A stretch of DNA of 64,000 nt from a virus: IMG/VR virus record IMGVR_UViG_3300040801_001025, positions 1-64,000 of that record; one strand, 5' to 3'. Positions 36,318-63,865 of this stretch are shown here, piece by piece; the stretch's first letter is position 1, and each line of letters starts with the position of its first letter. A program made the translations under genes and the position numbers. Under the pieces are notes generated by a model. The model was given only the letters and a program-made list of their open reading frames with translations, ran no database searches and was not told the DNA's origin.

Positions 36318-36991
36318 AAAATTATTTCGAATGCAAATACTGCTTTAAGAAGTACACCAGTGAAAAGCTATTCAACAAGCATGAATGTAAAGAAATGCGA
36401 ATTGAAAAGCTAATGCGTAGTAATACTGGCATGGCGGCATATGAGATTCATTGCGAGTGGAGACGTGCAAGAGGTATGGCACCGCTATCTAAAGAACGTT
36501 TTAGCGAATCCCGAGCATTGACTTCCATGGTCAAGTTTGTAAAATTCTCCAAGCGTGTTGCTCTACCTGCGCGTTCAAAGTTTATCAAATACATGTCTGA
36601 GCTTGGCATTCATGCTAAGGACTGGTGTAACAATAAAGTCTATGAGCATTACATCTCTAAGTTTGATGAATTAGTAACGCCAGAAGAACAAGCTGATGTG
36701 ACGTTAGAAACGATTAATCAACTTGCGAAAATCTATCGGTGTGAAACAGGTGATGTGTTAGCTCACATGCTACCAGACACTGCGATAAAGCTCATGCAAG
36801 CTCGTAAATTCTCACCATGGGTGATGCTACTATCTACTAAGTTTCACAGCTTCATGATGTATGGAATGTCACCGGAGCAACGTGCCCTACTTGAAGTCTA
36901 CGTTGATCCTAAGATTTGGAATGACAGACTTAAAGAGAATCCTGAGTTCACAAACCGAATGAAAAAGATTGTAAAATCTTTAGGGCTTTAA
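36314..36991 (+). CDS. C2H2 zinc-finger protein (225 aa)
   Basis: Begins with GTG in a GTGA overlap with gp62. Residues about 7-25 '[19 protein letters not shown]' form a single C2H2/C2HC zinc finger, followed by a basic helical region and a helical C-terminal domain. Similar proteins occur beside clamp-loader genes in marine T4-like phages, with no known role. Its end overlaps the convergent tail-fibre gene by four bases. Confidence 0.7.
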
Positions 36992-37917
36992 TATCTGACA
37001 GCTATAAATCTATATGACCATTGACCAGTAGTTACAGCCACACCTTGGTTATTGCTACCACCGCCATTTTTTGGACATATGTAAGGGCCTTGCGTGATAG
37101 AATATGTCGTATTTGTCCATTTAAAATAAAGATTAGTAGCATTGCAATATATGACAAATCTGTTTTGGTTAACAGGAATACCGCCACCAACGTTCACCTG
37201 TAAAGTTTCAACTGCACCACCGCCGACTGGAATTCTCTCACCAACTACATAACCGTTATTTGCGGATGTGCATTCTAAATATACCATATAAATGTCTGGA
37301 ACGCCACCAAGACCGTGTGATTCAGTAATGGTAGCTGTGGTAAGTGATCGTAAGCCTGACCTAAACACTGTTCCGGCAACGTCACCCGCTGGTCCCTGCG
37401 GACCTTGTGGACCTGTTGGACCGGCTGGGCCTGTTGGACCGGCTGGACCGGCTGGACCTGTAGCACCTGTCGCACCTGTTGGACCGGCTGGACCGACTGG
37501 TCCCGGTGGACCCGGTGTCAATGAAATAGTATCAACTTCATCTTTTAATTCTTGAATAGCATCTTGTACATTATTTGAACCTATGCTATTATACGGTGTG
37601 AAACTAACATCATTTGCATTAATTGTACTACCTAATGTCGCCCATGTTGAACCATTGAAAACATAAAGCTGCTCATCGGTTTGGTTCCACCATGTTTGAC
37701 CTTCAAGTGGATTATTGATTACGCTAGAAGGCGGTGTACCCGGAGTTGGACCTTCAGGTGATGAAAAGTTTGCAGCAAGTTGTACAAGGTTTTGCTGTCG
37801 AGCAGCACCATAATCAAGACGGCGTTTACCAGTGAAGGTCACACCATGATTGAATACAACCTCTGTGTCTAAAACTGAAAAACTACTCCCATCGGGAAGA
37901 TTAATAGTATAGGCCAT
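36988..37917 (-). CDS. Tail fibre protein with collagen-like repeat
   Basis: Probable receptor-binding or fibre component. The ATG at 37917 follows GCGGAG and a minus-strand late promoter. Residues 1-130 contain a typical fibre module ('[24 protein letters not shown]', one Trp-repeat unit like those in the 14.8 kb protein). Residues 136-179 are about 14 Gly-x-y collagen triplets (GPxGPx/GATGAT) and would form a trimeric triple helix. The C-terminal 125 residues are a beta-rich tip. 309 aa in all. Confidence 0.85.
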
Positions 37918-37937
37918 TATATAACTCCGCTTTACTA

Positions 37938-37945
37938 TATTTATA
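37938..37945 (-). promoter_or_regulatory. Late promoter box TATAAATA (minus strand)
   Basis: TATTTATA on the plus strand, 21 bases upstream of the collagen-like fibre gene. On the plus strand the overlapping TATAAAGG may serve the divergent polymerase-half gene. Confidence 0.75.
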
Positions 37946-37961
37946 AAGGGGTCCATAACAC

Positions 37962-38549
37962 ATGGATATTGACATAGATATCGCACCTGAAGTTGATGTA
38001 GAGGAATTATTCCCTAATGTCATTCGCAGTTCGCGAATTGAGAATGACGAACTCAAGAAACACAATGTCGGGTATCATTTTCAAAACATAGCGGTTGATC
38101 CTATAACTGGTTTTGCTGCAATTCCAGCAAAACCAGATAAACCTGTCGATCAGCTTAAAGAACATGGATATATTAAAATTGATATGATTACTGTAAATCT
38201 ACTTAAGCATTTTAAATCTAAAGAAGAAATGCGAGAATTGCAAGAAAAGGAGCCTGATTGGTCACTACTTGAAGATGAAGAAGTTGTTTCTAAACTTTTT
38301 CACTTAGCAAAGCATTTTGATGTTATTTCTAGAGTTAAACCAAGGTCCATTGTGGCACTTGCTGATGTATTTGCTTTGATTCGTCCGAACAAACTTAAAA
38401 TGTTAGATAAATACCTTAGTAACCCGGAGCAGTATCGGGAAGAGCTTTTTACTAAACGCGATCCATCTGATATGAGACGCGCACACGCTCTTCCTTACGC
38501 TCTGCTTATTGTGCTACAATTACATTTGATAAAAGAAGGTAGAATATGA
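37962..38549 (+). CDS. C-terminal half of a split C-family (DnaE-like) DNA polymerase
   Basis: The protein opens M-D-I-D-I-D-I, the catalytic P-D-x-D-x-D-F motif of DnaE (Asp2 and Asp4 for E. coli Asp401 and Asp403). Further matches in order: 'KKHNVGYHF' (His-Ala-Ala-Gly-Val-like), '[21 protein letters not shown]' (residues 61-81; third catalytic Asp at Asp74, E. coli Asp555 in K-F-D-F-L-G-L), '[23 protein letters not shown]' (120-142; the fingers motif R-L-x-P-x-x-F-x-D-L-x-A-L-x-A-L-x-R-P-G) and '[20 protein letters not shown]' (172-191; F-x-K-S-H-A-x-A-Y-A-x-x-x-Y). The protein is 195 aa, far smaller than the corresponding region of DnaE. It pairs with the gene ending at 33768. ATGA overlap with the next gene. 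Confidence 0.75.
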
Positions 38550-39869: not shown

Positions 39870-42800
39870 TTATGATGTACTTTGTGCCGCTACAGAGTTC
39901 AATACGTTTCCGCTCGAAGCGATGTCACCAACATCAGTACTTGTTGTGAATGGCGCAGCAAATGGGAATCTATCAATTCTATTAGATAACGTGTCGCCAG
40001 CGTGATAACCATCACTTGCTGATCGCAATGCCCTACCTAGACGTTTTGGTACAGCTAGATCGCCTACATCGGTGGCCGTAACAAAAGGTGTTGAGAATGG
40101 GAACCTATCGACTTGTGCAGTCCCTGCGCCACCGGGGAAATTAAGATCACCTGCAACAAAGTAACCATCACTATCAGATTGTGTTCCACCAGTTCTCCAG
40201 CGTTCTGTAATTAGATCACCAACGTCAGTTGATGTTACAAAAGGTGAGGACAATGGGAAGCTCTCAATAGTATTAAGCAAAATAGGTGCAGGGTTATTCG
40301 GGTTTCTACCACCCGAAACATAGCCATCTGTATCAGATTCGTGTCCAGAGCCATTAACGCTGGCTTGTGTCATATCACCAATGGCGCTTGAAGTTGTAAA
40401 CGGAGCACTGAATGGGAATGAACGAATACTACTTCTGACAGCCGGACTTAATGTTGGTTCAAATCCACCAATTGTAAATCCTTGAGAACTTGATAGATCA
40501 CTCACGCCTGAAGCATTAGCAATAGGAGCTATCAAATCGCCTACATCGGTAGCCGTTACAAATGGTGATGATGCTGGTATTCTATCAACAGACGCATAGA
40601 TAATTGGAACACCACTATCGAAGCCGCCTGCTACAAATAAATCAGTACTTCCACTATGACCTGTGGCAACTGATCGATTAGAATTCAAACTACCTATGTC
40701 TGTAGCTATGGTAAAAGGTGATGATAGTGGGAACGATCTAACGTCATTGTACACAATACTCGGTGAACTACTGTAACCACCTGAAATATATCCATCATTA
40801 TAACTTAATGCCCCTGCTGATGGCGTTGGTGTAACTGTAGGTGTCGGTGTGGCAGTCGGAGTTAATGTAGGTGTAACTGTCACAGTTGGTGTCGGTGTTG
40901 GCGTTGGCGCAAATCCCGTGCCATCTTCTAAGCCAGAAGAACCTCGTGCGATACCACCTCCGATATCACCTACATCAGTGCTATTTGTAAATGGCGAACT
41001 GAATGGGAATCTTGTAATAGAGAATAAGGTTACGGGTGCTAATCCACCACCGATGAATCCATCTGTGTTGCTTGAGTGACCAGAGGCTTGATATCTGCCA
41101 GTAGGTCCAATATCTCCAACATCTGTTGCCGTTACAAATGGAGCCGAGAATGGGAATCGATCAACCGTTCTAACTGAGCCCGGTGCTGTACCTCCAGCCC
41201 TATATCCGTCAGTGTCAGAATTATGTCCCGTACTCAAGTTGATAGTTTCAGTTAGATTACCAACATCTGTGGCTGTAGTAAAGCTTGTAGTAAACGGATA
41301 GCGTTCAATCGTATTTACAAACGGTGTGACAGGTGTTCTACCGCCCATAGTATAACCATGGGTGTCTGATTGTGTTCCAGCAAAACGATTTGTAGCTACA
41401 TTCAAATCACCTATATCAGTTGCAGTTATAAATGGTGCTGCAAACGGATATTCTTGAATTACGTTGGTAACGCCCCCGGCGCTATCACCGCCAGCAACGT
41501 AACCACTGTTACCATCACTTGAAGCACTCAAGTTGAACAGTCCGGTTGTTAAGTTTCCAACGTCGGTTGTGGTTGTAAATGGCGACGTGAAAGGGAAACT
41601 CTCAACACTATCACTTCTTCCAAATGGACCCGTGCCAGTAGCGCCACCCATCACATATCCATCAGAACCTGAAGCTGCACCTTCGCCTACAAAAATTGCC
41701 ACTTGTAGACTTCCAATATTAGTCGCATTTGTAAATGGTGAACTGAACGGGAATGATCGTATTTCAGAAGTTGATACATTAGCTGGAGTAGTGTAACCAC
41801 CTGCTGTATAACCTGTAAACAATCCTTCTAGCTCTGATAACGGTGTTGGAGATGGTGTAGGAGTAATCGTTACCGATACTGTAACGGTTGGCGTCACTGT
41901 AGGCGTTGGCGATACTGGCACTCCTGAAGATGATGGCGTAACTGTTGGTGTCAACGTTGCGGTCAACGTTGGTGTCAACGTTGGTGTCAACGTAGTAGTC
42001 GGAGTTACACTAGCAGTATTAGTTGGCGTCACAGTTGGCGTCACAGTTGGCGTAATCGAAGCTGTTGGTGTTACACTAGCAGTTACGGTAGGTGTATTAG
42101 TTGGCGTTGCTGTTAGTGTCGGCGTCACAGTTGGCGTAATTGAAGCTGTTGGCGTTACACTAGCAGTATTAGTTGGTGTAATCGTTGGCGTTGCTGTTAG
42201 TGTCGGCGTAATCGAAGCTGTCGGAGTTGGTGTCACGGATGCACCCGGCGTACCTGCTGGTGTTCCAGTAGGTGTCAATGTTGGCGTAGTGCTTTGAGTA
42301 ACAGTAACTGTTGGAGTCACTGTCGCTGATGGTGTTACGGTAGCAGTTACTGTAGGTGTAACAGTATTTGCTGGTGTTACACTTGGTGTAGTAGTTGGCG
42401 TGATTGTAACTGTGGCCGTTAGCGTCGGCGTAATCGAAGCTGTCGGAGTTGGTGTCACGGATACGCCCGGTGTACCTGCTGGTGTTCCAGTAGGCGTTAA
42501 TGTTGGTGTCACTGTAGCCGTTGGTGTTACACTAGCAGTATTAGTTGGTGTAATCGTTGGCGTTACAGTCGCACTCGCGGTTATTGTAGGCGATAATGTT
42601 GGTGTCGGAGTAACGGTAGCCGTATTAGTTGGTGTAAGAATTACTGTTGCTGTTGGAGTTGCTGTAACAGTTAATGTTGGTGTCAGCGTTGGTGTCAACG
42701 AAATCGTTGGCGTAGCTGATGGCGTAATAGTTACCGTGGCGCTCATTGTTGGCGTCAACGTTGGTGTTAGTGAAATAGTCGGCGTCACAGTTGGCGTCAC

Positions 42801-44240
42801 AGTAGCTGTTGCTGTGTTTGTTGGTGTAAGTGTTGGAGTCAACGAAATAGTTGGAGTCACCGAAGGTGTTACCGAAGGTGTCAATGAAATCGTTGGTGTC
42901 AACGTTGGTGTAACTCGCGGGGTAAATGATGGCGTCACCGTAACCGCAGGTGTTTGTGTTGGCGTAACACTTGGTGTAGTAGTTGGCGTCACCGTATTTG
43001 TTGGTGTTAGACTAATTGTCGGCGTGTTAGTTGGCGTCAACGAAACTGTTGGTGTAACAGATGGTGTTACAGTATTTGACGGTGTAATAACTGGTGTAAA
43101 CGATGGCGTCACTGTCACTGGCGGTGTTACAGTTGGTGTTACAGTTGGTGTCACGCTCGTCGTAGGCGTCACGCTCGTTGTTGGATTCGGCGTAAATGCC
43201 GGTGTCTGAGTAACCGAAGGTGTTACCGTTGGTGTAATTGTTGGCGTATTTGTAGCAGACGGTGTTACCGTTGGCGTAATAGTATTCGTAGGCGTCACCG
43301 ATGGCGTTACCGTTGGCGTAATAGTATTCGTTGGTGTCGGTGTCGGCGTTGACGACAAAGTAATGAATGGTGTAAACGGTGGCGTATTCGTTGGCGTCAA
43401 TGTTGGTGTTAACGAAATTGTTGCTGTTAATGTTGGTGTCAACGAAATAGTTGGTGTCAGCGTTGGAGTCAACGAAATAGTTGGCGTCAATGTCGGTGTT
43501 AACGAAATTGTTGGTGTCAACGTTGGCGTAACTGTTGGTGTTACAGTAGCAGTGACTGTGCTAGTTGGTGTTACAGTAGCAGTGACTGTGCTAGTCGGTG
43601 TTACAGTAGCTGTTGGAGTAATACTTGGCGTTGGAGATACGGTTACAGATGGCGTAACCGTAGCAGTCACTGTGGCTGTTGGCGTCAACGTCGGCGTAAC
43701 CGTAGGAGTAGCAGTACTTGTTGGCGTCAATGTCGGCGTAACCGTAGGTGTGTTTGTCGCTGTCTGTGTCGGCGCAGGAGTTTGTGTTGGTGTAACGGTA
43801 GCTGTAGGTGTTACAGCCGCTGTAGCAGTTGCGGTAGGCGTTACAGCCGCCGTTTGCGACGGTGTTTGTGATGGCGTCTGAGACGGAGTAACAGTAACAG
43901 TTGGTGTAACCGTAGCAACCGGAGTTGGTGTAGGTGTAGGGAAGAACGTATCCACACCATAGAAAAAGAAATGCACGATGCCAGTTGTCGGTTCTGAGAA
44001 TTCAAACAGGACTGTATTACCATCGACAATACGGAATTTATCAGGAGTTACTTCTTGATTATTTATATAAACTTTTGCAATAACGCCACGAGTGTTCTGA
44101 CCGTGATCGATGGTCCAAACACTTTGAGCAGTTTCAATAGAAACAACAAAGGCAAGAAGCCCTTCAGCCACTTCAGTATTCCTGATGACATATTTACCTG
44201 TCGCCAAGTCCAGATAAAGTGGCACAATTCTACTTGTCAT
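39870..44240 (-). CDS. Long fibre with Thr/Pro stalk and two six-repeat propeller-like heads (1456 aa)
   Basis: Probable receptor-binding fibre. Residues 1-100 are a beta domain shared with the neighbouring 104-aa protein. Residues 101-800 are almost only Thr, Pro, Val, Ser, Ala and Leu in T-P-T-[VLIA] units, an extended rigid stalk that could be O-glycosylated. Residues about 806-1105 hold six repeats of some 50 residues with D-G-Y-x-x-G-G ... F-P-F-[ST]-[SA]-P-F-x-[TN]-x-T-D-[VI]-G-[DN]-[LI]. A second short Thr/Pro linker (about 1109-1143) precedes six more such repeats to the end. Six repeats each would fit two kelch-like six-bladed propellers. A minus-strand CATAAATA (44263-44270) lies upstream. 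Confidence 0.75.
41841..43940 (-). repeat. Degenerate 12-base coding repeat of the fibre stalk
   Basis: About 2.1 kb made of ACN-CCN-ACN-GTN-type units coding for Thr-Pro-Thr-x. Many units repeat exactly at the DNA level over tens of bases (for example runs of GGTGTCAACGTT on the plus strand), so the tract should be prone to length change by recombination. Confidence 0.85.
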
Positions 44241-53847: not shown

Positions 53848-53869
53848 GCACATAGGAGATATGGCAATG
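53848..53869 (+). repeat. 22-base translation-start repeat, copy 1
   Basis: Identical over 22 bases to 55766-55787. It contains CACATAGGAGAT, the ATG and the next two codons of the NadM-Nudix gene. Confidence 0.9.
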
Positions 53870-54955
53870 GATCAAGCATACGATTTTATCGTCTACATTG
53901 GGCGATTCCAACCGTTTCACGACGGTCACCTCGAAACTCTCAAACTTGCCGCAGAAACTGGTAAAGAAGTTATTGTTGTCATTGGCTCTGCTAATTCTGC
54001 ACCGACTCCTAAGAATCCGTGGACGGCTATTCAGCGCCAAGAAATGATTGTTGAAGCAGCATTCGCTGCTGGTTTTGATGTTTCCAAACTCTCTTTCATT
54101 CATGTTGAAGACCGTCGATACAAAGAATCCAAGTGGATTAGCTATGTACAAGGCACTGTTATGGACATTGTGCGTGCCAAGACTCGCAAACCTAATCCGT
54201 CTATTGCGTTAATCGGGCACGAGAAAGATTCATCTAGTTATTACCTTCGTCAGAATTTCCCTACGTGGAAATTTGTAGAGACAGGTCCGTATGTCAAAGA
54301 GAAAGGTGTTGGCAAAGTGGTTAGCTCTACAAAAATTCGTGAGCTTATGTTTGAGAACCACTTGGGTTATACCGAGAGTAATCTTCCGCCTGCTGTTTAC
54401 GAATGGCTGGACAAGTATACGCTGTCTGATGATTTTACTCGTCTGCAAGATGAATACCACTACATTCTTCAAGAAGAAAAGATTTATGAAGCTCTTCCGT
54501 ATGGGATTACTTTTCAGACTGTAGATAGCGTTGTAGCACAGTCTGGTCATGTTCTTCTCGTCCAGCGTGGTAATCCATTGGGTTACGGGCTATGGGCGCT
54601 ACCGGGTGTTCACCTTGCGCCGAATGAAACTTTGGAGCAGGCATCCATGCGTGCCGTGCTAACTGAAACAAATCTTGACGTGCCGCCAAAGGCTTTCAAA
54701 GGCTCTCTGGTGAGTAAAAAAGAATTTGATCACCCTAACCGCTCTTTGCGTGCAAGATTGACTACAGATCGAAATAGGACGCTTACGACGGCGTTCTACT
54801 ACAAACTTGACTCTTCTCATCCACTTCCGGTAAAGGGCCTTAAAGCTGGTGAGGGAATCTTGAAGGCATGGTGGTTCCCGTTCTCTGAAGTGTGGAGAAT
54901 GCGTGACCAACTCTTTGAGGACCATGCTGATATCCTTGACTACTTCATCGGATAA
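53861..54955 (+). CDS. nadM: Bifunctional NMN adenylyltransferase / Nudix protein (NadM-Nudix, NatV-like)
   Basis: Makes NAD+ from NMN and ATP. The adenylyltransferase domain has 'GRFQPFHDGH' (14-23, the [HT]-x-G-H motif) and 'SSTKIRE' (155-161, the ISSTxxR motif). The second domain (about 220-364) is Nudix-like, as in Synechocystis slr0787 and KVP40 NatV, but its box at 249-271 reads G-V-H ... N-E ... R-A-V-L-T-E-T. The catalytic R-E-x-x-E-E is thus R-A-x-x-T-E, so ADP-ribose hydrolysis is probably lost. The start at 53861 is set by AGGAG and by the repeat shared with nadV. Works with NadV downstream. Confidence 0.92.
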   Translation: MAMDQAYDFIVYIGRFQPFHDGHLETLKLAAETGKEVIVVIGSANSAPTPKNPWTAIQRQEMIVEAAFAAGFDVSKLSFIHVEDRRYKESKWISYVQGTVMDIVRAKTRKPNPSIALIGHEKDSSSYYLRQNFPTWKFVETGPYVKEKGVGKVVSSTKIRELMFENHLGYTESNLPPAVYEWLDKYTLSDDFTRLQDEYHYILQEEKIYEALPYGITFQTVDSVVAQSGHVLLVQRGNPLGYGLWALPGVHLAPNETLEQASMRAVLTETNLDVPPKAFKGSLVSKKEFDHPNRSLRARLTTDRNRTLTTAFYYKLDSSHPLPVKGLKAGEGILKAWWFPFSEVWRMRDQLFEDHADILDYFIG

Positions 54956-54972
54956 ATTTTAATGCAGATACT

Positions 54973-54980
54973 TATAAATA
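54973..54980 (+). promoter_or_regulatory. Late promoter box TATAAATA
   Basis: Exact box, 21 bases before the homing endonuclease ATG, with GAAGGAG between. The inserted gene has its own late signal. Confidence 0.75.
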
Positions 54981-55001
54981 GCAGTAGAAGGAGCTATTGC
55001 T

Positions 55002-55739
55002 ATGAATTATCACAAAGTATACGGAAATATTGTACAAAAAGCAATTGACGAAGATCGAAAATGGCGTAAAGGAACTTACTATGAGCGCCATCACATATTA
55101 CCAAAGAGTTTGGGAGGAACTGATAAACAGACAAACATAGTTTTACTTACGGCACGAGAGCATTATATTTGCCATCTGTTGCTAGTAAAAATGTATGAAG
55201 CATATGAAGAATCTCATATAAAGATGCTTAGAGCGTTGAATATGATGAAGGTGAAACACGATAAACATGAACGTGATTTTAAATTTTCTTCTAAGCTTTA
55301 TGAGAGTATGAAAGCTAGATTATACGGTGAAAATGGTTTATTGGTAGGTGAAAACAATCCTAACTACGGTGTCAAACAAAGTAAGGAAACACGAAAGAAA
55401 AAATCAGATGCTGCTAAGCGTCGATGCGCTGATCCAAAAGAACGAGAGCGTTTGAGGCAAATGGCACTGAACAGGACACCAGAACATGCAGAGAAAATTA
55501 GACAAGGTAATTTAGGACTTAAACGATCAGATGAAACTAAAAAGAAATTAAGAAAATCTTTGAATGAGTGGTACTCCAAGGGGAACAAACCAGCAAATTC
55601 AAAGAAAGTAATGGCAGATGGTGTGGTATATGATACGTTGCACGACGCGGGAAACGAATTAGACTTGACACCTTCTGGGGTGTTGTATAGAATACGTTCA
55701 AGTAGTAAGAAATTCAAAGATTATTATTACTTGGATTGA
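55002..55739 (+). CDS. HNH homing endonuclease with NUMOD repeats
   Basis: Free-standing homing endonuclease. The nuclease part is 'YERHHILPKSLGGTDKQTNIVLLTAREHYICHLLL' (HNH of the T4/SPO1 homing type) in the first 70 residues. It is followed by NUMOD3-type DNA-binding segments ('NPNYGVKQSKETRKKKSDAAKRR' region and 'GNLGLKRSDETKKKLRKSL' region) and a C-terminal NUMOD1/IENR1-like helix-turn-helix ('TLHDAGNELDLTPSGVLYRI'). 245 aa. It sits between nadM and nadV and splits an otherwise compact pathway. Confidence 0.88.
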   Translation: MNYHKVYGNIVQKAIDEDRKWRKGTYYERHHILPKSLGGTDKQTNIVLLTAREHYICHLLLVKMYEAYEESHIKMLRALNMMKVKHDKHERDFKFSSKLYESMKARLYGENGLLVGENNPNYGVKQSKETRKKKSDAAKRRCADPKERERLRQMALNRTPEHAEKIRQGNLGLKRSDETKKKLRKSLNEWYSKGNKPANSKKVMADGVVYDTLHDAGNELDLTPSGVLYRIRSSSKKFKDYYYLD

Positions 55740-55757
55740 GGGCGGAATCCCTATAAT
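55729..55757 (+). promoter_or_regulatory. Possible promoter of nadV
   Basis: TATAAT (55752-55757) with ACTTGG 17 bases upstream (55729-55734). A small dyad GGATT/AATCC lies between. Placed 21 bases before the nadV ATG. Confidence 0.5.
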
Positions 55758-55765
55758 CTAAACTT

Positions 55766-55787
55766 GCACATAGGAGATATGGCAATG
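55766..55787 (+). repeat. 22-base translation-start repeat, copy 2
   Basis: Identical to 53848-53869. It supplies the ribosome binding site, ATG and first codons (Met-Ala-Met) of nadV. Confidence 0.9.
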
Positions 55788-57236
55788 AATAATGAAATTA
55801 AAATTACTGATAATGTTATCTTGAACTGTGACACGTATAAAGTTTCACACTGGATGTTCATGGAAGAAGGCACGACCTTTTCTCAATCCTACGTCGAACC
55901 CCGCGTGGGTGCCAAATACGACGAGATTGTATTCTTCGGTCTCCAAGGCATTCTCATGGATGAATTCATGAAGCCGGTCACCATGGAAATGGTTGATCAG
56001 GCAGAGGAATTCCTTGCCAAACACCTTGGTTCTACTGAAGCGTTTAACCGACGCGGCTGGGAAATCATTGTAAACGAATACGGTGGCTACCTCCCGATTC
56101 GCATTCGTGCTGTGAAAGAAGGCACCGTGCTTCCGGTTGGTAATGCCGTCATCATCGTAGAATCTACGGACCCTCGTTTCAATACGGTGTGGTGCTCGTC
56201 CTACGTTGAAACGAAAATCATGCGTTCGTGGTATGGCTCGACCGTTGCAACGCACTCTCGCGAGATTACGAAGGCTATCCGTGAGGCTCTGAATCGCACT
56301 GGCACCCCTGATCTTGCTAGCATGAAGCTGGTGGATTTTGGTAGCCGTGGTGTGAGCACGAAGCAGGAATCTATGGTCGGTGGCGCTGCTCACCTCGTGA
56401 CTGGCACCAGCACCGATAACCTTCTTGGTATTGGATACGTCGAGGACGTTTACGGTTCCGAGAATGGTATGGCTGGTTTCTCTATTCCTGCAACGGAACA
56501 CAGCATCACGACTTCTTGGGGTGAACTTCGAGAGTTTGAATTCTTCAAGAACATTGTTACGAACATTCTGCCGAAAACCGGCATTGCATCTGTAGTTTGC
56601 GATACCTACAATCTCATGGCTGCAATCGAAATGTTCGGTGAACTTCGCGAAGACATTGAAAAAAATGGTGTCATTGTTATTCGCCCTGATTCTGGTGATC
56701 CTGTTGAAATGACGGAAGCTGTGGTCCAGAAGCTTGACTCGCTTTTCGGCAGCACGGTCAATGATAAAGGCTTCAAGGTTTTGAACGATTGTGTACGTAT
56801 CATTCAGGGCGACGGTATTGATCTGGAAATGACCAAGGCTATTCTTGATAACTTTGAGCGTCTTGGCTACAGTGCAGATAATATCACCTTTGGTAGCGGT
56901 GGCGGCTTGCTTCGTAAGGTAACTCGTGATACTATGCGCTTCGCAATGAAAGCTTGCCATGTCATTGTCGACGGTGAAGCTCGTGACATTCGTAAAGTTC
57001 CATTGACTGATCCGAGTAAAGCGTCGAAAGCTGGTCGTTTGACGCTGGTGCAAGACACTGTGACTGGCAAGTACAGAACTGTCAATCAGCACGATACTAT
57101 TCGCGCTACCGAGGTTGACGCAATGGATACTGTCTTTGAGAATGGAAGACTACTCCGTATGCAAACTTTTGATGACATTCGTGAACGCGCTGCTATCAAG
57201 GACTGTCCCCGGCGACTTGATAATGTAGCAGCCTAA
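55779..57236 (+). CDS. nadV: Nicotinamide phosphoribosyltransferase NadV
   Basis: Makes NMN from nicotinamide and PRPP. The 485-residue product has the NAMPT landmarks: N-terminal 'NCDTYKVSHWMFMEEGT', 'FGLQG', the 'DFGSRGVSTKQESMVGGAAHLV' region (near residue 190), 'ATEHSITTSWG', 'VIRPDSGDP' (PRPP-binding D-S-G-D, near 308) and 'FGSGGGLLRKVTRDTMRFAMK'. Start at 55779 set by TAGGAGAT. With NadM it forms the two-step nicotinamide-to-NAD+ route known from phage KVP40 and from the anti-defence pathway NARP2. Base composition is more GC-rich than the surroundings. Confidence 0.95.
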   Translation: MAMNNEIKITDNVILNCDTYKVSHWMFMEEGTTFSQSYVEPRVGAKYDEIVFFGLQGILMDEFMKPVTMEMVDQAEEFLAKHLGSTEAFNRRGWEIIVNEYGGYLPIRIRAVKEGTVLPVGNAVIIVESTDPRFNTVWCSSYVETKIMRSWYGSTVATHSREITKAIREALNRTGTPDLASMKLVDFGSRGVSTKQESMVGGAAHLVTGTSTDNLLGIGYVEDVYGSENGMAGFSIPATEHSITTSWGELREFEFFKNIVTNILPKTGIASVVCDTYNLMAAIEMFGELREDIEKNGVIVIRPDSGDPVEMTEAVVQKLDSLFGSTVNDKGFKVLNDCVRIIQGDGIDLEMTKAILDNFERLGYSADNITFGSGGGLLRKVTRDTMRFAMKACHVIVDGEARDIRKVPLTDPSKASKAGRLTLVQDTVTGKYRTVNQHDTIRATEVDAMDTVFENGRLLRMQTFDDIRERAAIKDCPRRLDNVAA

Positions 57237-57994: not shown

Positions 57995-58462
57995 ATGAAA
58001 ATAATTAATGATTCAAAATGGCAGGACCGATTCATTAAGCTGGCGAGAATGGTGGCTAGTTGGTCTAAGGATAGATCAACTCAAGTCGGTGCTGTTATTG
58101 TTACAGGTGATGGACACCCTCGCTCTTTTGGGTTCAACGGAATGCCACAAGGCGTAAATGATGATATTGATGAGCGGCATGAGCGTCCAGAAAAGTATTT
58201 TTGGTTTGAACATGCTGAAAGGAATGCGATATACTTGGCAGATGGTGATCTAAAAGATTGCGTTATGTTTGTAACACATATGCCGTGTGCTGATTGTGCT
58301 CGTGCCATTATTCAAACAGGAATTGCGCACGTTGTGGTTGACGCGCAGGGGAAATTGAGTCATGGTACTCAACTATCAGATTCATGTACGGCAGCGCGAG
58401 AAATGTTTTTTGAGACTGGCGTTTATTTGATTGAAAGATATGTAAGGGATGATGCAAAATGA
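57995..58462 (+). CDS. dCMP deaminase
   Basis: Zinc enzyme converting dCMP to dUMP for dTTP synthesis. The zinc site is His73-Ala-Glu75 ('FEHAERNA') and P-C-x-x-C at 97-101 ('MPCADC'). Substrate-binding 'GFNGMP' (46-51) matches dCMP deaminases. 155 aa, slightly shorter than T4 Cd (193 aa). Ribosome binding site is weak. ATGA overlap with the following kinase gene. Confidence 0.92.
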   Translation: MKIINDSKWQDRFIKLARMVASWSKDRSTQVGAVIVTGDGHPRSFGFNGMPQGVNDDIDERHERPEKYFWFEHAERNAIYLADGDLKDCVMFVTHMPCADCARAIIQTGIAHVVVDAQGKLSHGTQLSDSCTAAREMFFETGVYLIERYVRDDAK

Positions 58463-58974
58463 ACATTAAGCTGCACACTGAGCGTCCGAATCTTATCGTG
58501 TTGGTTGGAGTACCGGCATCCGGTAAGTCTACTTGGCGTGATAATTTTATCGCTAAGATGGAAACGGCTGTAGACGATGACTTTGTAATTATCTCGTCCG
58601 ACGATGAGATTGAGGCATTGTGTGAAGCTGAAGGAATCACGTATACTGAGGGCTTCTCGAAGTTTGTAGGTAAGGCTACGGCAATCGTGAAGCAAAAGGT
58701 TCGCGACGCAGTAAATAATGGTAGGAACATCATTTGGGATCAGACTAATGTCAATGTGAAGAAGCGTAAGACCATCTTTCGTGACACTGGACAGAATTAC
58801 TACCGTATTGCGGTTGCATTCGAACTGGATGATGATGCAGAATTGAAGCGTAGGCTACAACACCGTGAGGAAACTACGGGCAAAAGCATTCCGCCACATG
58901 TTATCGACAGCATGCTGAAAAGCTATGTGCGACCGACGACGCAGGAGGGATTTGACAAAGTACATTTGGCATAG
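58459..58974 (+). CDS. Polynucleotide-kinase-like P-loop kinase
   Basis: Kinase domain like the 5'-kinase half of T4 Pnk. Walker A 'GVPASGKST' (17-25), then 'IISSDDEIEAL' (the S/R-D-D substrate site near residue 49), 'IIWDQTNVN' (D-x-T-N, near 91) and an Arg-rich lid 'LKRRLQHREETTGKSIP'. 171 aa. T4 Pnk fuses this to a phosphatase; here an independent HAD phosphatase is encoded at 60316. A role in tRNA repair with the RNA ligase is likely but inferred. Confidence 0.78.
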   Translation: MNIKLHTERPNLIVLVGVPASGKSTWRDNFIAKMETAVDDDFVIISSDDEIEALCEAEGITYTEGFSKFVGKATAIVKQKVRDAVNNGRNIIWDQTNVNVKKRKTIFRDTGQNYYRIAVAFELDDDAELKRRLQHREETTGKSIPPHVIDSMLKSYVRPTTQEGFDKVHLA

Positions 58975-58985
58975 GAGCTAGGACA

Positions 58986-59615
58986 ATGATGGAGCAAGAA
59001 ATTATCGTCGGTCAACCGACGTTGCCGCAGATACTGGCGTTGAACAAGGGTGGCGAACCGCTACACTGGATCAACTTCAAGGAGTGTCTGTTCTACGAAG
59101 CAAAGGGTAAGATTGCATGGACCGATGGTCGTATCAAGATTGCATTGCGTGGTGGAACGAACGCCAAGACTGGTGAACGTACAATCGTAGAGATTGATAC
59201 CATTGTGGCTGTCGACAGCAACATTTCTCCGACTAAGTATCGTCAGGATACTCCGTCGTTGACTAACGCGGCATTGTTCTCTCGTGATATGAACATATGC
59301 GCTTACTGTGGAGAACGTTTCTCAGATAAGCATTTGACTCGTGATCACGTAGTTCCAACGTCGAAAGGTGGTCCTAACAACTGGATGAACGTGGTGGCAT
59401 CTTGCCGTCAATGTAATCAGAAGAAGGACGACCGTACACCGGAGCAGGCTCATATGCCACTGCGCTATGTACCTTACATTCCGTCGTTTAACGAGGCTTT
59501 GATTCTAAAGAATCACCGAATCCTTGGTTGCCAGATGGAATGGTTGCTAGGTGGTGTATCAAAGGATAGTCGTATCCGACAAGCTTACGAGAATGGCACC
59601 TATCCGGTGCAATAG
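58986..59615 (+). CDS. HNH endonuclease of the cellular type
   Basis: Contains a full HNH/zinc core in the second half: 'CAYCGERFSDKHLTRDHVVPTSKGGPNNWMNVVASCRQCN' region, shown by C-x2-C, D-H-V-x-P, N-x2-N and C-x2-C. The rest matches the 200-residue HNH proteins common in bacteria rather than phage homing enzymes. It begins with two ATGs (58986, 58989) after AGGAGC. The codon use is more GC-rich than in neighbouring genes, which suggests transfer from a host. Confidence 0.85.
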   Translation: MMEQEIIVGQPTLPQILALNKGGEPLHWINFKECLFYEAKGKIAWTDGRIKIALRGGTNAKTGERTIVEIDTIVAVDSNISPTKYRQDTPSLTNAALFSRDMNICAYCGERFSDKHLTRDHVVPTSKGGPNNWMNVVASCRQCNQKKDDRTPEQAHMPLRYVPYIPSFNEALILKNHRILGCQMEWLLGGVSKDSRIRQAYENGTYPVQ

Positions 59616-59627
59616 CTCTAAGCTATC

Positions 59628-59672
59628 TTGAAGTTCGATAAAAGGGTGTGCTATAATGGCGCACCCTTTTTT
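59628..59672 (+). promoter_or_regulatory. Promoter nested in a terminator hairpin
   Basis: TTGAAG (59628-59633), 18 bases, TATAAT (59652-59657). The -10 forms the loop (TATAATG) of an 11-bp stem 59641-59651 with 59659-59669 (AAAGGGTGTGC with GCGCACCCTTT), followed by a T run. It can end the HNH message and start the MazG-like message at one site. Confidence 0.75.
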
Positions 59673-59692
59673 CGTTATGGAGACAGAAAAAT

Positions 59693-60313
59693 ATGGATAG
59701 AAAAGATTTTCAATTACTTGCAGTACGCACAGAGTCTGTCAAGGATGTTTTAACTCTCAGAGCAGTTGATAGAGAGATATTCTTTACCTCTCTTCAAATT
59801 CTAGATTTTATTGTGGAGATTTTGGATCGGTATAAGAAACACATCTTTTACGGACGTGAATTGCCATATGTTGATGATATGAGTTCATTAGCTACTTCTA
59901 CTACTCGTCTGAGTAATGAATTAGGCTATCTTATTGCGGCAGCATCGCGTTCTAGCGAAACAGAGACTGAAGAACTTGTAATCAATCCGAGAGTATTTCA
60001 TGCTTTGCTTGGAACTATTACAGAACATGGTGAGCTTGCTGCTGCACTTCTCAAGGGATTGCAGCGTGAAGAAGGTCTTGATTACATCAACGTCCTCGAA
60101 GAACTTGGTGATTCTGACTGGTACAAGGCTTTGTTCTACGAAGCAACTGGTGTAGACTGGGAAACTGTACAAGCAGCTATCATCAAAAAGCTAGAGATTC
60201 GCTTCGAAGATGTAATCTTTGGCGAAGATGGTGCAAATGATCGTGATCTTGAAGCTGAACGTGCGGAGCTAGAGAGACTGCTACAGTCTCAACTTGACCT
60301 ATTTGAAGGATAA
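59693..60313 (+). CDS. MazG-like nucleotide pyrophosphohydrolase
   Basis: All-alpha NTP pyrophosphatase fold. The metal-binding pattern E-x2-E then E-x2-D is visible in 'ITEHGELAAALLKG' (about 111-124) and 'VLEELGDSDWY' (about 140-150). It is followed by 'WETVQAAIIKKLEIRF', typical of MazG C-terminal helices. 206 aa. Substrate not known: dUTP, dNTPs or ppGpp-related nucleotides are all possible. A strong nested promoter precedes it. Confidence 0.8.
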   Translation: MDRKDFQLLAVRTESVKDVLTLRAVDREIFFTSLQILDFIVEILDRYKKHIFYGRELPYVDDMSSLATSTTRLSNELGYLIAAASRSSETETEELVINPRVFHALLGTITEHGELAAALLKGLQREEGLDYINVLEELGDSDWYKALFYEATGVDWETVQAAIIKKLEIRFEDVIFGEDGANDRDLEAERAELERLLQSQLDLFEG

Positions 60314-60315
60314 GT

Positions 60316-60891
60316 ATGAGTAACGTTGCTGTTTTTGATCTGGATGATACACTTCTGAATCTTAAAGAAGAGCTAATGGAAATCGTTAGCTTGGAATTAG
60401 GAAAAAAAGTTGACCATTGGTGTCTCTGGAATGGCCACCATGACTTTCATCAGCGAGCAGGTATTGACGGTGACCAACTGAAAGAGATTTGTCAGAAGCA
60501 TAAAGTCTTCAGAACAGTCAGACCTCATCTATTTGCCCCGTATCTGCTCCGTGACTTGCGTCTAAGGGGTTTTAAGGTTGTCATCGTAACAGCACGAGAA
60601 GGATTCGTACCAAACGCTAGAGCGGAAACTGAGGTGTATCTGGGCCTACATGATCTTGAGTATGATGAACTTGTAATCACGGGTCATGGTCAAAACAAGA
60701 TGGATTATCTAGAGCACCACGATCACATTGCTGTTGCAGTAGATGATCAAGTTGGAAATTGTGAAGATTTTCATGAAAGTGGCAAAGTTGATCATACATT
60801 GTTGGTTGCGCTACCGGGTAACAAAAATTGTACATTGTTCCCTCGTATACATAATCTGTATCAGGTGTACAACCATCTGAATTTGGAATAG
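60316..60891 (+). CDS. HAD-family phosphatase
   Basis: Haloacid-dehalogenase phosphohydrolase. Motif I 'FDLDDTLLNL' (Asp8 nucleophile, Asp10), motif II 'VVIVTARE' (Thr), a Lys in 'GQNKMDYL' and motif IV 'VAVDDQVGN'. 191 aa, like 5'(3')-deoxyribonucleotidases and the 3'-phosphatase part of Pnk. It may complement the kinase-only protein encoded at 58459, or act on dNMPs beside the MazG-like enzyme. The stop codon merges with the next AGGAG. Confidence 0.82.
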   Translation: MSNVAVFDLDDTLLNLKEELMEIVSLELGKKVDHWCLWNGHHDFHQRAGIDGDQLKEICQKHKVFRTVRPHLFAPYLLRDLRLRGFKVVIVTAREGFVPNARAETEVYLGLHDLEYDELVITGHGQNKMDYLEHHDHIAVAVDDQVGNCEDFHESGKVDHTLLVALPGNKNCTLFPRIHNLYQVYNHLNLE

Positions 60892-60901
60892 GAGAAGTGA
60901 T

Positions 60902-61180
60902 ATGCGCTCTATTAATCGTGAAAGACTTCAAACGCTACGAGGTGCAACCCTCATTGCGGATATGAGAAGTCCAGAATATTTTCGCGGTGGCAGTTTGCCT
61001 GAAGCAAAGAATTTGCCATTACGAAACTTGCTAAATGAGCTTCACCGAACTGACAAGAAGTCTAACATTGTAATTGTTGGTAATTCTGTTGATGAAAGTG
61101 ACATGCAAATGGCATGCACATATGCTGAGCAGCTTGGTTTTACCAAGATTTACAAGTCTGAAATCACAAAACTGTTGTAA
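60902..61180 (+). CDS. Rhodanese-like domain protein without the catalytic Cys
   Basis: Single rhodanese fold of 92 aa: 'LIADMRSPEYFRGGSLPEAKNLPL' (about 17-40) is the D-[VM]-R-x-P-x-E-[FY]-x-x-G-[HS]-[IL]-x-x-A-x-[NH]-[LI]-P motif. After 'NIVIVGNS' the active-site loop C-x-x-G-x-R is absent, so it probably binds rather than transfers sulfur. TAGGAG is merged with the previous stop. Confidence 0.7.
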   Translation: MRSINRERLQTLRGATLIADMRSPEYFRGGSLPEAKNLPLRNLLNELHRTDKKSNIVIVGNSVDESDMQMACTYAEQLGFTKIYKSEITKLL

Positions 61181-61207: not shown

Positions 61208-61987
61208 TTAAACGGCTTCTTCTAGAGCGCAAATCCAAGATTTTACAAACTCGCTTCTAAGAATGTCGGCCTTAGTGAAGACAACTTCGTCAAGGTCAGG
61301 CATTCTACTAGCGACTTTCAAGAACTTTTGCATTCCAGATTGATCGTTATGTGATTTATATAGGTCGGTTTGAATTTGGTCACCGATCAGAATGATGCTA
61401 GAATCCACACCCACACGGGTCATAACAGTATTGACTTCATGGAAGGTTAGATTCTGAAGCTCATCTACTAGGATAACAGCATCATCCCAGTTCAAACCAC
61501 GCAGATGCGAGGTAGGCATAAATTCAATGATACCGGCAGCTTTCATATCGTCATATGCATTGTAATTTCCCACTAAGAAACTAACTATGTCTCGATATGG
61601 AGCTTCGTAGGGAGCAAGTTTTTCATCAACTGTGCCGGGTAAGTGACCAATTTCGCGACTGGCGACGGCGCTTCGCACGATTATGATTCTTTTTTGAGGT
61701 GCATCTTTGGACAATACATCAGTTAGGGCTAGATACATTCCTGCTAATGTTTTACCAGTTCCTGCGGAGCCATTAGCTATGATGTTATTTCCTGAGAAGT
61801 AAGATTCAAACATTTGACGTTGTGGTTCGTTAAGAGGTTTGATAGCGCGTAAATCATGGATCGTCCATGACTTTTTCTTTCGGTCTTCTGCCATTGCAAT
61901 TCCATTTTTATATAATGCTTCTGTTAGCACTTCGATCTGTTCTTTTTTAGCACATTGTGCTTTCTTTCTGCTGCGTCTGTTAGACAT
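61208..61987 (-). CDS. phoH: PhoH-like ATPase
   Basis: P-loop ATPase of the PhoH family, common in marine phages; role unsettled, with RNA helicase/nuclease-type functions proposed. Walker A 'GSAGTGKT' (73-80), 'GHLPGTVDEKLAPYEAPYRD' region (the family's substrate loop) and Walker B 'AVILVDELQNL' (about 168-178), then 'ILIGDQIQTDL'. 259 aa, the usual size. Ribosome binding site GGGGG in the minus strand. Confidence 0.92.
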   Translation of the reverse strand: MSNRRSRKKAQCAKKEQIEVLTEALYKNGIAMAEDRKKKSWTIHDLRAIKPLNEPQRQMFESYFSGNNIIANGSAGTGKTLAGMYLALTDVLSKDAPQKRIIIVRSAVASREIGHLPGTVDEKLAPYEAPYRDIVSFLVGNYNAYDDMKAAGIIEFMPTSHLRGLNWDDAVILVDELQNLTFHEVNTVMTRVGVDSSIILIGDQIQTDLYKSHNDQSGMQKFLKVASRMPDLDEVVFTKADILRSEFVKSWICALEEAV

Positions 61988-62555: not shown

Positions 62556-63056
62556 GTGAAATTAATTGAAGTTGCATTGCTTGAGAAAGAAACACAGAAA
62601 CCGGGAACGTTTGTAGGAGCACGACCATCCAAAGAATCAATGAATATGATTCAGGATCAAATTAAAAAGCTTGATGTTCCTAACCCCATCGACAAAGGCA
62701 AGATGCACATCACTGTCATTTACTCTCGCAAACACTTACCAGATTTTAAAGCACGGGGTAAACTAGATAAACCTATTATCGCAAAACCGGATAAACTTCA
62801 CATATTCCCTGCACGAGACAGTAAGAATGCTCTCGTTCTAAAAATCAAATGTCCAGAGCTAACAAAACGTCATGAAGAAATCATGGACGAACATGAAGCA
62901 ACCTATGACTTTGACGAATACCGTCCGCATGTGACACTATCCTATGATGCGGGTGATTATGACCTATCCAAGTATAATGCTGATGACTTTAGTGATATTG
63001 AAATCACTGAAGAGTATGATACTCCACTTAAAACTGATTGGCTAGTTAAAAAATGA
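62556..63056 (+). CDS. acb1: Acb1-like anti-CBASS 2H phosphodiesterase
   Basis: Cleaves cyclic di- and trinucleotide signals of bacterial CBASS defence (known for T4 gene 57B product and its homologues). The two H-x-T motifs are His51-Ile-Thr53 in 'KMHITVIYSRK' and His125-Val-Thr127 in 'YRPHVTLSYD'; the flanking 'VPNP' and 'CPELTKRHEEIMDEHEATYDF' blocks match Acb1. Start is GTG after AAAGGGAC. The N-terminus MKLIEVALLEK looks like a capsid-targeting peptide ending in L-x-E. 166 aa. TGA overlaps the next ATG. Confidence 0.85.
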   Translation: MKLIEVALLEKETQKPGTFVGARPSKESMNMIQDQIKKLDVPNPIDKGKMHITVIYSRKHLPDFKARGKLDKPIIAKPDKLHIFPARDSKNALVLKIKCPELTKRHEEIMDEHEATYDFDEYRPHVTLSYDAGDYDLSKYNADDFSDIEITEEYDTPLKTDWLVKK

Positions 63057-63865
63057 AAAACTTCTCGACTATTTTTATATCTGATACTCACCTTGGTAGT
63101 CGTGGTGCATCCGCAGATGAACTCTTAGAATTCTTAAAAGAAATTGAGCATACAGACTTTGATCGTCTAGTTCTCAATGGTGATATTATCGATGGGTGGC
63201 GGCTATCTTCCAAATGGTATTTCCCTCAAGAACACTTAAATGTTATTAGAAAAATTCTTTCACTTGCTAAATCCGGCAAAGAAATTATCTATGTTGCAGG
63301 CAATCATGACGAATTCTTGAGAAAGTTCCATGCTTTTGATTTAAGTATGGGAAATGTAAAAATTGTAAACAAATACGAACATACCAGCATAAATGGTGAT
63401 AAATACCTAGTAGTCCACGGCGATGGTTTTGATCAAGTTATGAAGTATCACAAGTGGGTTGCGAAGATTGGTGATATCGGCTACAATCTTCTACTTGAAT
63501 TGAACAGTACAGTTAATCGCATTCGTAAATGGCTTAGAAAGCCATATTGGTCTCTCTCAAAGGCGATCAAAGGGAAAGTGAAGGAAGCGGCTAACTACAT
63601 ATTTGCGTTCGAGGAAACGGCTGTCAAAGCAGCACATGGCCGATACAAAGGTGTTATCTGTGGCCACATCCACGAGCCCGCATTGCGTTTTTATGATGTG
63701 AAGCTTGGGGAAGAAGTTGTCTGGTATATGAACTCTGGAGATTGGGTTGAATCGTGTTCTTGGTTAGCTGAAACAAAAGATGGTCACTTTGAAACGTGGC
63801 TGTGGAATGACGCAAATCCACTGAATATTAATTCTACCGAAAACCCATCATTTAGAGGCGAATAA
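63053..63865 (+). CDS. Metallophosphoesterase, UDP-2,3-diacylglucosamine hydrolase-like
   Basis: Calcineurin-like phosphoesterase of the LpxH-related family. Motifs in order: 'SDTHLGSRG' (10-18), 'LNGDIIDGW' (42-50), 'AGNHDEFL' (81-88), 'VVHGDGFD' (near 120) and 'VICGHIHEP' (near 200). 270 aa, between LpxH (240) and the LpxG/YbbF-like group. In hosts such enzymes act in lipid A synthesis or on related pyrophosphates, so the phage may alter lipopolysaccharide; substrate is not proved. Confidence 0.85.
   Translation: MKNFSTIFISDTHLGSRGASADELLEFLKEIEHTDFDRLVLNGDIIDGWRLSSKWYFPQEHLNVIRKILSLAKSGKEIIYVAGNHDEFLRKFHAFDLSMGNVKIVNKYEHTSINGDKYLVVHGDGFDQVMKYHKWVAKIGDIGYNLLLELNSTVNRIRKWLRKPYWSLSKAIKGKVKEAANYIFAFEETAVKAAHGRYKGVICGHIHEPALRFYDVKLGEEVVWYMNSGDWVESCSWLAETKDGHFETWLWNDANPLNINSTENPSFRGE

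Follow-up and report, generated by a model that had tools for sequence, protein, structure and literature searches.

What can a virus gain from keeping, within an NAD+ salvage enzyme, a Nudix domain that has lost conserved residues of its active site? The question is raised by the gene pair nadM-nadV of the IMG/VR virus record IMGVR_UViG_3300040801_001025, which comprises 84,498 bases and whose first 64,000 nucleotides (the window) were analyzed. The first gene encodes NadM, in which a nicotinamide mononucleotide (NMN) adenylyltransferase (NMNAT) is fused to a C-terminal Nudix domain, and the second encodes the nicotinamide phosphoribosyltransferase NadV (Table 1). The likely answer is a salvage operon whose Nudix domain has turned into a pseudo-enzyme and is retained for a job other than cutting.

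All conserved positions that deviate in this NadM (the query) lie in the Nudix active site: among columns conserved to at least 95%, 4 of 17 differ in the Nudix half and 0 of 15 in the NMNAT half. The alignment set the query against two solved enzymes, the Synechocystis slr0787 protein (2qjo) and that of Francisella (2qjt), and against 22 phage NadM taken from along the ranked list of 445 homologous phage records. Its box reads PGV...E...RAVLTE, against PGG...E...RExxEE in the relatives; PGV and RAVLTE are both exclusive to it in this set, and the pattern of an intact box, GX5EX7REUXEE, is not matched. The alignment confirmed the substitutions G250V, E265A and E268T, which had been proposed from the letters and translations of the window alone (hereafter the sequence-only reading). 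The loss of catalytic glutamates claimed on that occasion holds for E265 and E268, but E256 and E269 are kept, so that half of the box's four glutamates are gone; G249 and R264 also remain. The inventory of box losses was correct, but it overlooked D331E and D332G, by which AGEGI replaces the conserved G-x-D-D-A loop, and a homing endonuclease between the two genes. Of the comparators named in the same reading, slr0787 was aligned and has PGG and RExxEE, but KVP40 NatV was represented by phi-Grn1 (genus Schizotequatrovirus).

The rarity of these changes was assessed in 142 other non-redundant NadM, mostly of phages and including the two solved enzymes, in 139 of which the box was resolved. G250 and E265 are kept in all 139 and E268 is Glu in 138, in a set of which part came from a scan whose only pattern demanded PGG and is biased for the box. 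A scan with the NMNAT half only, which cannot bias the state of the box, provided 77 resolved boxes: one further member of the query clade, one with E268Q, and the remainder with GEEE at the four positions. Residue 332 is Asp in 97.8% of the other NadM. The losses of the query lie well beyond the variation seen in the family. Further relatives were gathered via NadV and via alignment of the nadM-nadV pair, and full-length NadM, used in an exact-peptide scan of IMG/VR, gave no match.

The losses are shared by two IMG/VR contigs from metagenomes other than that of the query. In L026 (IMGVR_UViG_3300009788_000144), whose NadM is truncated, the corresponding motifs are PGVH, RALIEE and AGKGI; in L130 (IMGVR_UViG_3300023049_000222), where nadV lies directly 3' of nadM, they are PGVH, RAIYDE and AGNGV. 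V250, A265 and G332 are identical in the three proteins, while positions 268 (T/E/D) and 331 (E/K/N) vary; Gly332 thus occurs in all members of the clade. The NadV of L026 is 60% identical to that of the query, and the genes downstream correspond. In a tree of the C-terminal part with the catalytic columns excluded, the three proteins are joined at 98/98, within an 11-row group (97/94) that also includes the intact L041, L047, L054, L090 and L135 and three isolated phages. In an earlier tree, from which L130 was absent, the query and L026 were joined at 91, within a seven-row group at 99 also holding L123. Because the clade is nested among intact relatives, the active-site loss is, by this phylogeny, derived and took place once on this lineage, which probably consists of jumbo phages. 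Nudix activity would have been lost elsewhere via other routes, since L221 (NadM of Fluviispira multicolorata; PEA, RGLKEE) and L235 (NadM of a Methylobacter metagenome-assembled genome; RKLKAE) have degenerate boxes of their own and the Nudix half is wholly absent from the NadM of Acinetobacter.

The altered domain is still recognized by PF00293 (44.8 bits, cut-off 21.1), and NadM as a whole matches 2qjo with E=4e-69. The N-terminal half is a HIGH nucleotidyltransferase with the GRFQPFHxGH, KD and SSTxIR motifs. Against NF003786, the NCBIfam model of bifunctional NadM, the protein scores 286.9 bits, below the cut-off of 397; intact phage relatives being unscored with the same library, this is weak evidence. 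The AlphaFold2 model of NadM has a mean local confidence (pLDDT) of 94.9 and a predicted template modelling score (pTM) of 0.91, and its top Foldseek match is 2qjo (TM 0.86), with the Nudix domain of NrtR carrying bound ADP-ribose (3gz8) and a TRPM2 chanzyme among the lesser structural matches; in this model the Nudix fold is predicted to be intact.

Identity between the query and L130 is 62% in the Nudix half and also in the NMNAT half. Synonymous divergence amounts to 0.84-0.91 across the halves and is saturated (synonymous proportion, pS, 0.91 in the Nudix half), for which reason ratios of nonsynonymous to synonymous divergence are omitted, and the nonsynonymous divergence of the Nudix half is 0.27. 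A domain drifting freely at such a synonymous distance would be beyond recognition, which argues for purifying selection. Common to all three proteins are D222, R236 in a strand, G249, R264, E269, R294, W338, D354, H355 and the motif FDHPxRSLRARL. In pairs of intact NadM the identity of the Nudix half averages 13.6 points above that of the NMNAT half (standard deviation 6.3), whereas the query-L130 pair shows a difference of -1.4 points, the usual advantage being absent. The Nudix domain is still selected, less strictly than in its active relatives, and this relaxed but retained pattern is the one expected if the catalytic constraint was lost and another constraint remained. In Tajima relative-rate comparisons of the query and L026 with L041 as the outgroup, the counts were 21 and 13 in the Nudix half (chi2 1.88, not significant) and 38 and 38 in NadV.

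The catalytic consequences can be judged by analogy with other Nudix proteins; published work is cited below by PMC accession. In NUDT9 magnesium is coordinated by the first Glu of RExxEE, and both NUDT9 mutants with RILGEE and human TRPM2 with RILRQE are inactive (PMC6461439; PMC4974056). The equivalent double mutation in the Nudix domain of sea-anemone TRPM2 lowered kcat to about 1% and shifted KM by no more than twofold (PMC6461439). By this analogy, which supports the sequence-only reading that the activity is probably gone, the ADP-ribose pyrophosphatase of the query has very probably been lost or impaired about 100-fold at least: replacement of the box-opening Gly by Val, of the first RExxEE Glu by Ala and of the G-x-D-D-A Asp by Gly would abolish hydrolysis or leave about 1% or less. 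The same residues were looked for in proven active homologues and not found, slr0787 and the Francisella enzyme both having PGG and RExxEE. A search of open-access papers gave no account of a NadM whose Nudix domain is catalytically dead, and in a 2022 survey of viral NAD+/ADP-ribose systems this domain of NadM is presented as an active hydrolase (PMC9503650). Compensation by a substitute Nudix gene was considered and rejected, none being present in the 84.5-kb record, probably a fragment; the 317-kb record of L041 holds a second Nudix gene.

Because it still folds and remains under selection, the Nudix domain most likely has a non-catalytic function. It would serve as a structural part of NadM or as a binder of ADP-ribose or a related NAD metabolite, the role of a scaffold being a little more likely than that of a sensor. 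Binding can outlast catalysis: in TRPM2 hydrolysis was measured as lost and the response to ADP-ribose as kept (PMC6461439; PMC4974056), and NrtR, with the motif RQUXEKXDU, is an inactive Nudix protein that responds to ADP-ribose (PMC6800001). By analogy with these, the query domain is probably a pseudo-hydrolase and could still bind ADP-ribose. The analysis shows the gene content, the residue losses and their common ancestry, purifying selection and the predicted fold; the loss of activity, the non-catalytic role and any binding of a ligand are inferred. Several points weigh against this account. Retention of E256, R264 and E269, together with the diversity of catalytic bases among Nudix enzymes, makes residual or altered hydrolysis possible; the clade has three members, of which L026 is truncated; the ligand role of the FDHPxRS loop is putative; and part of the signal from the relaxed Nudix half could reflect slow decay limited only by the needs of folding.

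The latter point bears on the best surviving alternative, that of a structural remnant in which catalysis became dispensable and the domain persists just for the folding or oligomerization of NadM, with no ligand-dependent function. This is possible rather than probable. It agrees with the relaxation of the Nudix half (-0.014, expressed as a fraction, against a mean of +0.136 and a standard deviation of 0.063 in intact pairs) and with the variation now permitted at positions 268 and 331, and NADM_SYNY3 is reported to dimerize differently from the Escherichia coli ADP-ribose pyrophosphatase (PMC5389931). The putative ligand loop and R236, however, are unchanged in all three members of the clade, and Acinetobacter NadM functions without a Nudix half, indicating that the NMNAT half does not depend on it in principle.

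A sensor or sponge is conceivable as well, in which the dead Nudix domain would bind the ADP-ribose or cyclic ADP-ribose signals of NADase defenses and thereby tune the NMNAT half or soak up the signal. The query combines lost box glutamates with a predicted conserved fold, as a non-catalytic sensor would; its pattern of loss is that of human TRPM2 (R-I-L-R-Q-E versus R-A-V-L-T-E), whose binding of ADP-ribose persists, and NrtR, found in complex with ADP-ribose among the structural matches, is another dead Nudix domain sensing this ligand. Such a sensory role would fit the retained fold, the putative ligand loop, purifying selection and the TRPM2 and NrtR precedents, and a Macro-domain gene is present in the records of both the query and L026. 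Yet the losses of G250 and D332 could also disturb the pocket, and no allosteric link is known to join the two halves. On balance such a role is doubtful, and only a small chance is given to its fullest form, in which a sensor or sponge of ADP-ribose or cyclic ADP-ribose switches on NAD+ synthesis, or captures the alarm, when a host NADase defense fires.

It is improbable that the domain is still an enzyme with a changed metal site or another substrate, like the GDP-mannose mannosyl hydrolases, which have lost Nudix-box residues and are active. The retained box residues and the Asp at position 268 of L130 would suit such an enzyme, and Nudix enzymes that lack motif residues and act by another mechanism exist (PMC5389931), but the first Glu, the box Gly and the loop Asp have become small non-polar residues in all three proteins, with no new acidic residue fixed in the clade. 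An artefact of sequencing or assembly, or a pseudogene, can be practically dismissed despite the metagenomic origin of the contig, because the open reading frame (ORF) is intact, the protein is conserved in the face of synonymous saturation, and V250, A265 and G332 recur in L026 and L130, ruling out sequencing error.

The identification of nadM and nadV as a nicotinamide-salvage pair of the NARP2 kind, made in the sequence-only reading, was borne out by the Pfam domains, NF006629, phrog_448 and the Nampt signature. NadV scores 511.6 bits against NF006629 (cut-off 405), an NCBIfam model named nicotinate phosphoribosyltransferase; its best PHROG, phrog_448 (E=2e-144), together with the NAMPT_N domain, indicates a nicotinamide enzyme. 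The protein carries GSGGGLLRKVTRD, the Nampt form of the signature. Namat of the NARP1 pathway has instead the consensus GSX-phi-X-phi-X-phi-TRD with aromatic residues (PMC12774641), and an assignment of NadV to NARP1 was rejected, as this selectivity-clamp motif is replaced by GSGGGLLRKVTRD. An Adps-like N-terminal phosphoribosyl pyrophosphate (PRPP) synthetase domain, PF13793, had no match in the 84.5-kb record, which is probably a fragment. With the Nampt-type signature of NadV and the neighboring NMN adenylyltransferase gene, the pair is by its motifs NARP2-like, using PRPP and NMN and not ADP-ribose. NadV would convert nicotinamide and PRPP to NMN, the substrate that the N-terminal half of NadM, itself intact, would adenylate to NAD+. 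The proposal that the phage gains by sparing ADP-ribose is therefore weak, because ADP-ribose is no input of the pathway; its hydrolysis yields ribose-5-phosphate, a precursor of PRPP, and could even feed the latter.

The slr0787 protein and the Francisella tularensis enzyme (2qjt/2r5w) share with the query the two-domain architecture, the predicted fold and the intact NMNAT motifs, but these proteins, deposited as ADP-ribose pyrophosphatases, keep PGG, RExxEE and G/A-x-D-D-A where the query has V, A, T and G. Pairs of NadV and NadM in phages (NadM group phrog_395; NARP2), among which we count natV/nadV of KVP40 on the word of the sequence-only reading, likewise have nadM followed by nadV and use the NMN route; unlike the query clade, the 22 sampled among 445 homologues keep the Nudix active site. 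The NUDT9-H domain of vertebrate TRPM2 resembles the query in being a Nudix domain fused to another function, with canonical ancestors, degeneration in one clade, loss of the first and second Glu of RExxEE and a preserved fold. TRPM2, however, is an animal ion channel related to NUDT9 rather than to NadM, and its binding of ADP-ribose is established while that of the query is putative. NrtR is another Nudix protein tied to NAD metabolism that does not hydrolyze ADP-ribose and senses it, but it is fused to a DNA-binding domain instead of an NMNAT and regulates host genes. The single-domain NadM of Acinetobacter is likewise an NMNAT from which no ADP-ribose hydrolase activity is expected, but there the Nudix domain is absent, not kept in a disabled state. 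Current annotation labels proteins like the query "ADP-ribose pyrophosphatase". A clade with a conserved but disabled domain provides a natural experiment on the purpose of the Nudix half of NadM, with the intact L041 and L123 as controls, and, should the domain bind ADP-ribose, rebuilding of NAD+ would be tied directly to the sensing of NADase defenses.

Table 1. Features of the nadM-nadV locus and of the surrounding record (window coordinates unless stated otherwise).
Feature	Position	Strand	Basis or remark
nadM, 364 aa: NMN adenylyltransferase (residues 1-185) and pseudo-Nudix domain (about 213-364)	53861..54955	+	Pfam PF01467 (CTP_transf_like), PF00293 (NUDIX)
Translation leader of nadM, ACATAGGAGATATGGCAATG	53850..53869	+
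IGRFQPFHDGH nucleotidyltransferase signature, intact	53897..53929	+	alignment
Degenerate Nudix box, PGVHLAPNETLEQASMRAVLTET	54602..54670	+	G250V, E265A, E268T; E256, R264, E269 kept
FDHPNRSLRAR loop past the Nudix box, kept; putative ADP-ribose-contacting loop	54725..54757	+	also in intact relatives, L026 and L130
AGEGI replacing the conserved G-x-D-D-A loop	54845..54859	+	D331E, D332G
Homing endonuclease (HNH, NUMOD3, I-TevI DNA-binding domain) in the nadM-nadV spacer	55002-55739	+	Pfam, PHROG 655
Translation leader of nadV, identical 20 bases ACATAGGAGATATGGCAATG	55768..55787	+
nadV, nicotinamide phosphoribosyltransferase, Nampt type	55779..57236	+	Pfam NAMPT_N plus NAPRTase
PhoH-like ATPase, calcineurin-like phosphoesterase, dCMP deaminase, AAA_33/zeta-toxin-like kinase, HNH protein, MazG-like, HAD-like and rhodanese-like genes	61208-61987; 63053-63865; 57995-61180	-; +; +
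Collagen-like repeat ORF	36988-37986	-
1456-aa ORF	39870-44240	-	no Pfam match at E 0.001; stretch with raised G+C (0.47)
Major head protein, terminase, DnaB-type helicase, UvsX-like recombinase	11-32 kb of record
Macro-domain protein gene	78057-78380 of record (beyond window end)	-	corresponds to locus L025 1429-1923 (-)

Judging by the head protein, terminase, helicase and recombinase genes, the source of the record is probably a large tailed phage, of which it would be a fragment. Downstream of nadV the order AAA kinase, HNH protein, MazG-like protein (Pfam) recurs in L041, an IMG/VR contig. The genes between 57995 and 63865 form a cluster of nucleotide and RNA metabolism, in part common to L026 and L041. 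Macro domains are also encoded in the L026 and L123 records, and given these genes, ADP-ribose chemistry may matter to the phages in other ways. The endonuclease in the nadM-nadV spacer has a homologue in L123, at the corresponding location and with 46% identity, while L026, L041 and L130 lack it. The leader ACATAGGAGATATGGCAATG occurs twice in the window, each time without mismatch and where 0.01 occurrences would be expected, and only before nadM and nadV; in L026 and L041, ACATAGGAG is retained 5' of nadV. The second ATG of nadM, at 53867, has a better Shine-Dalgarno spacing than the first.

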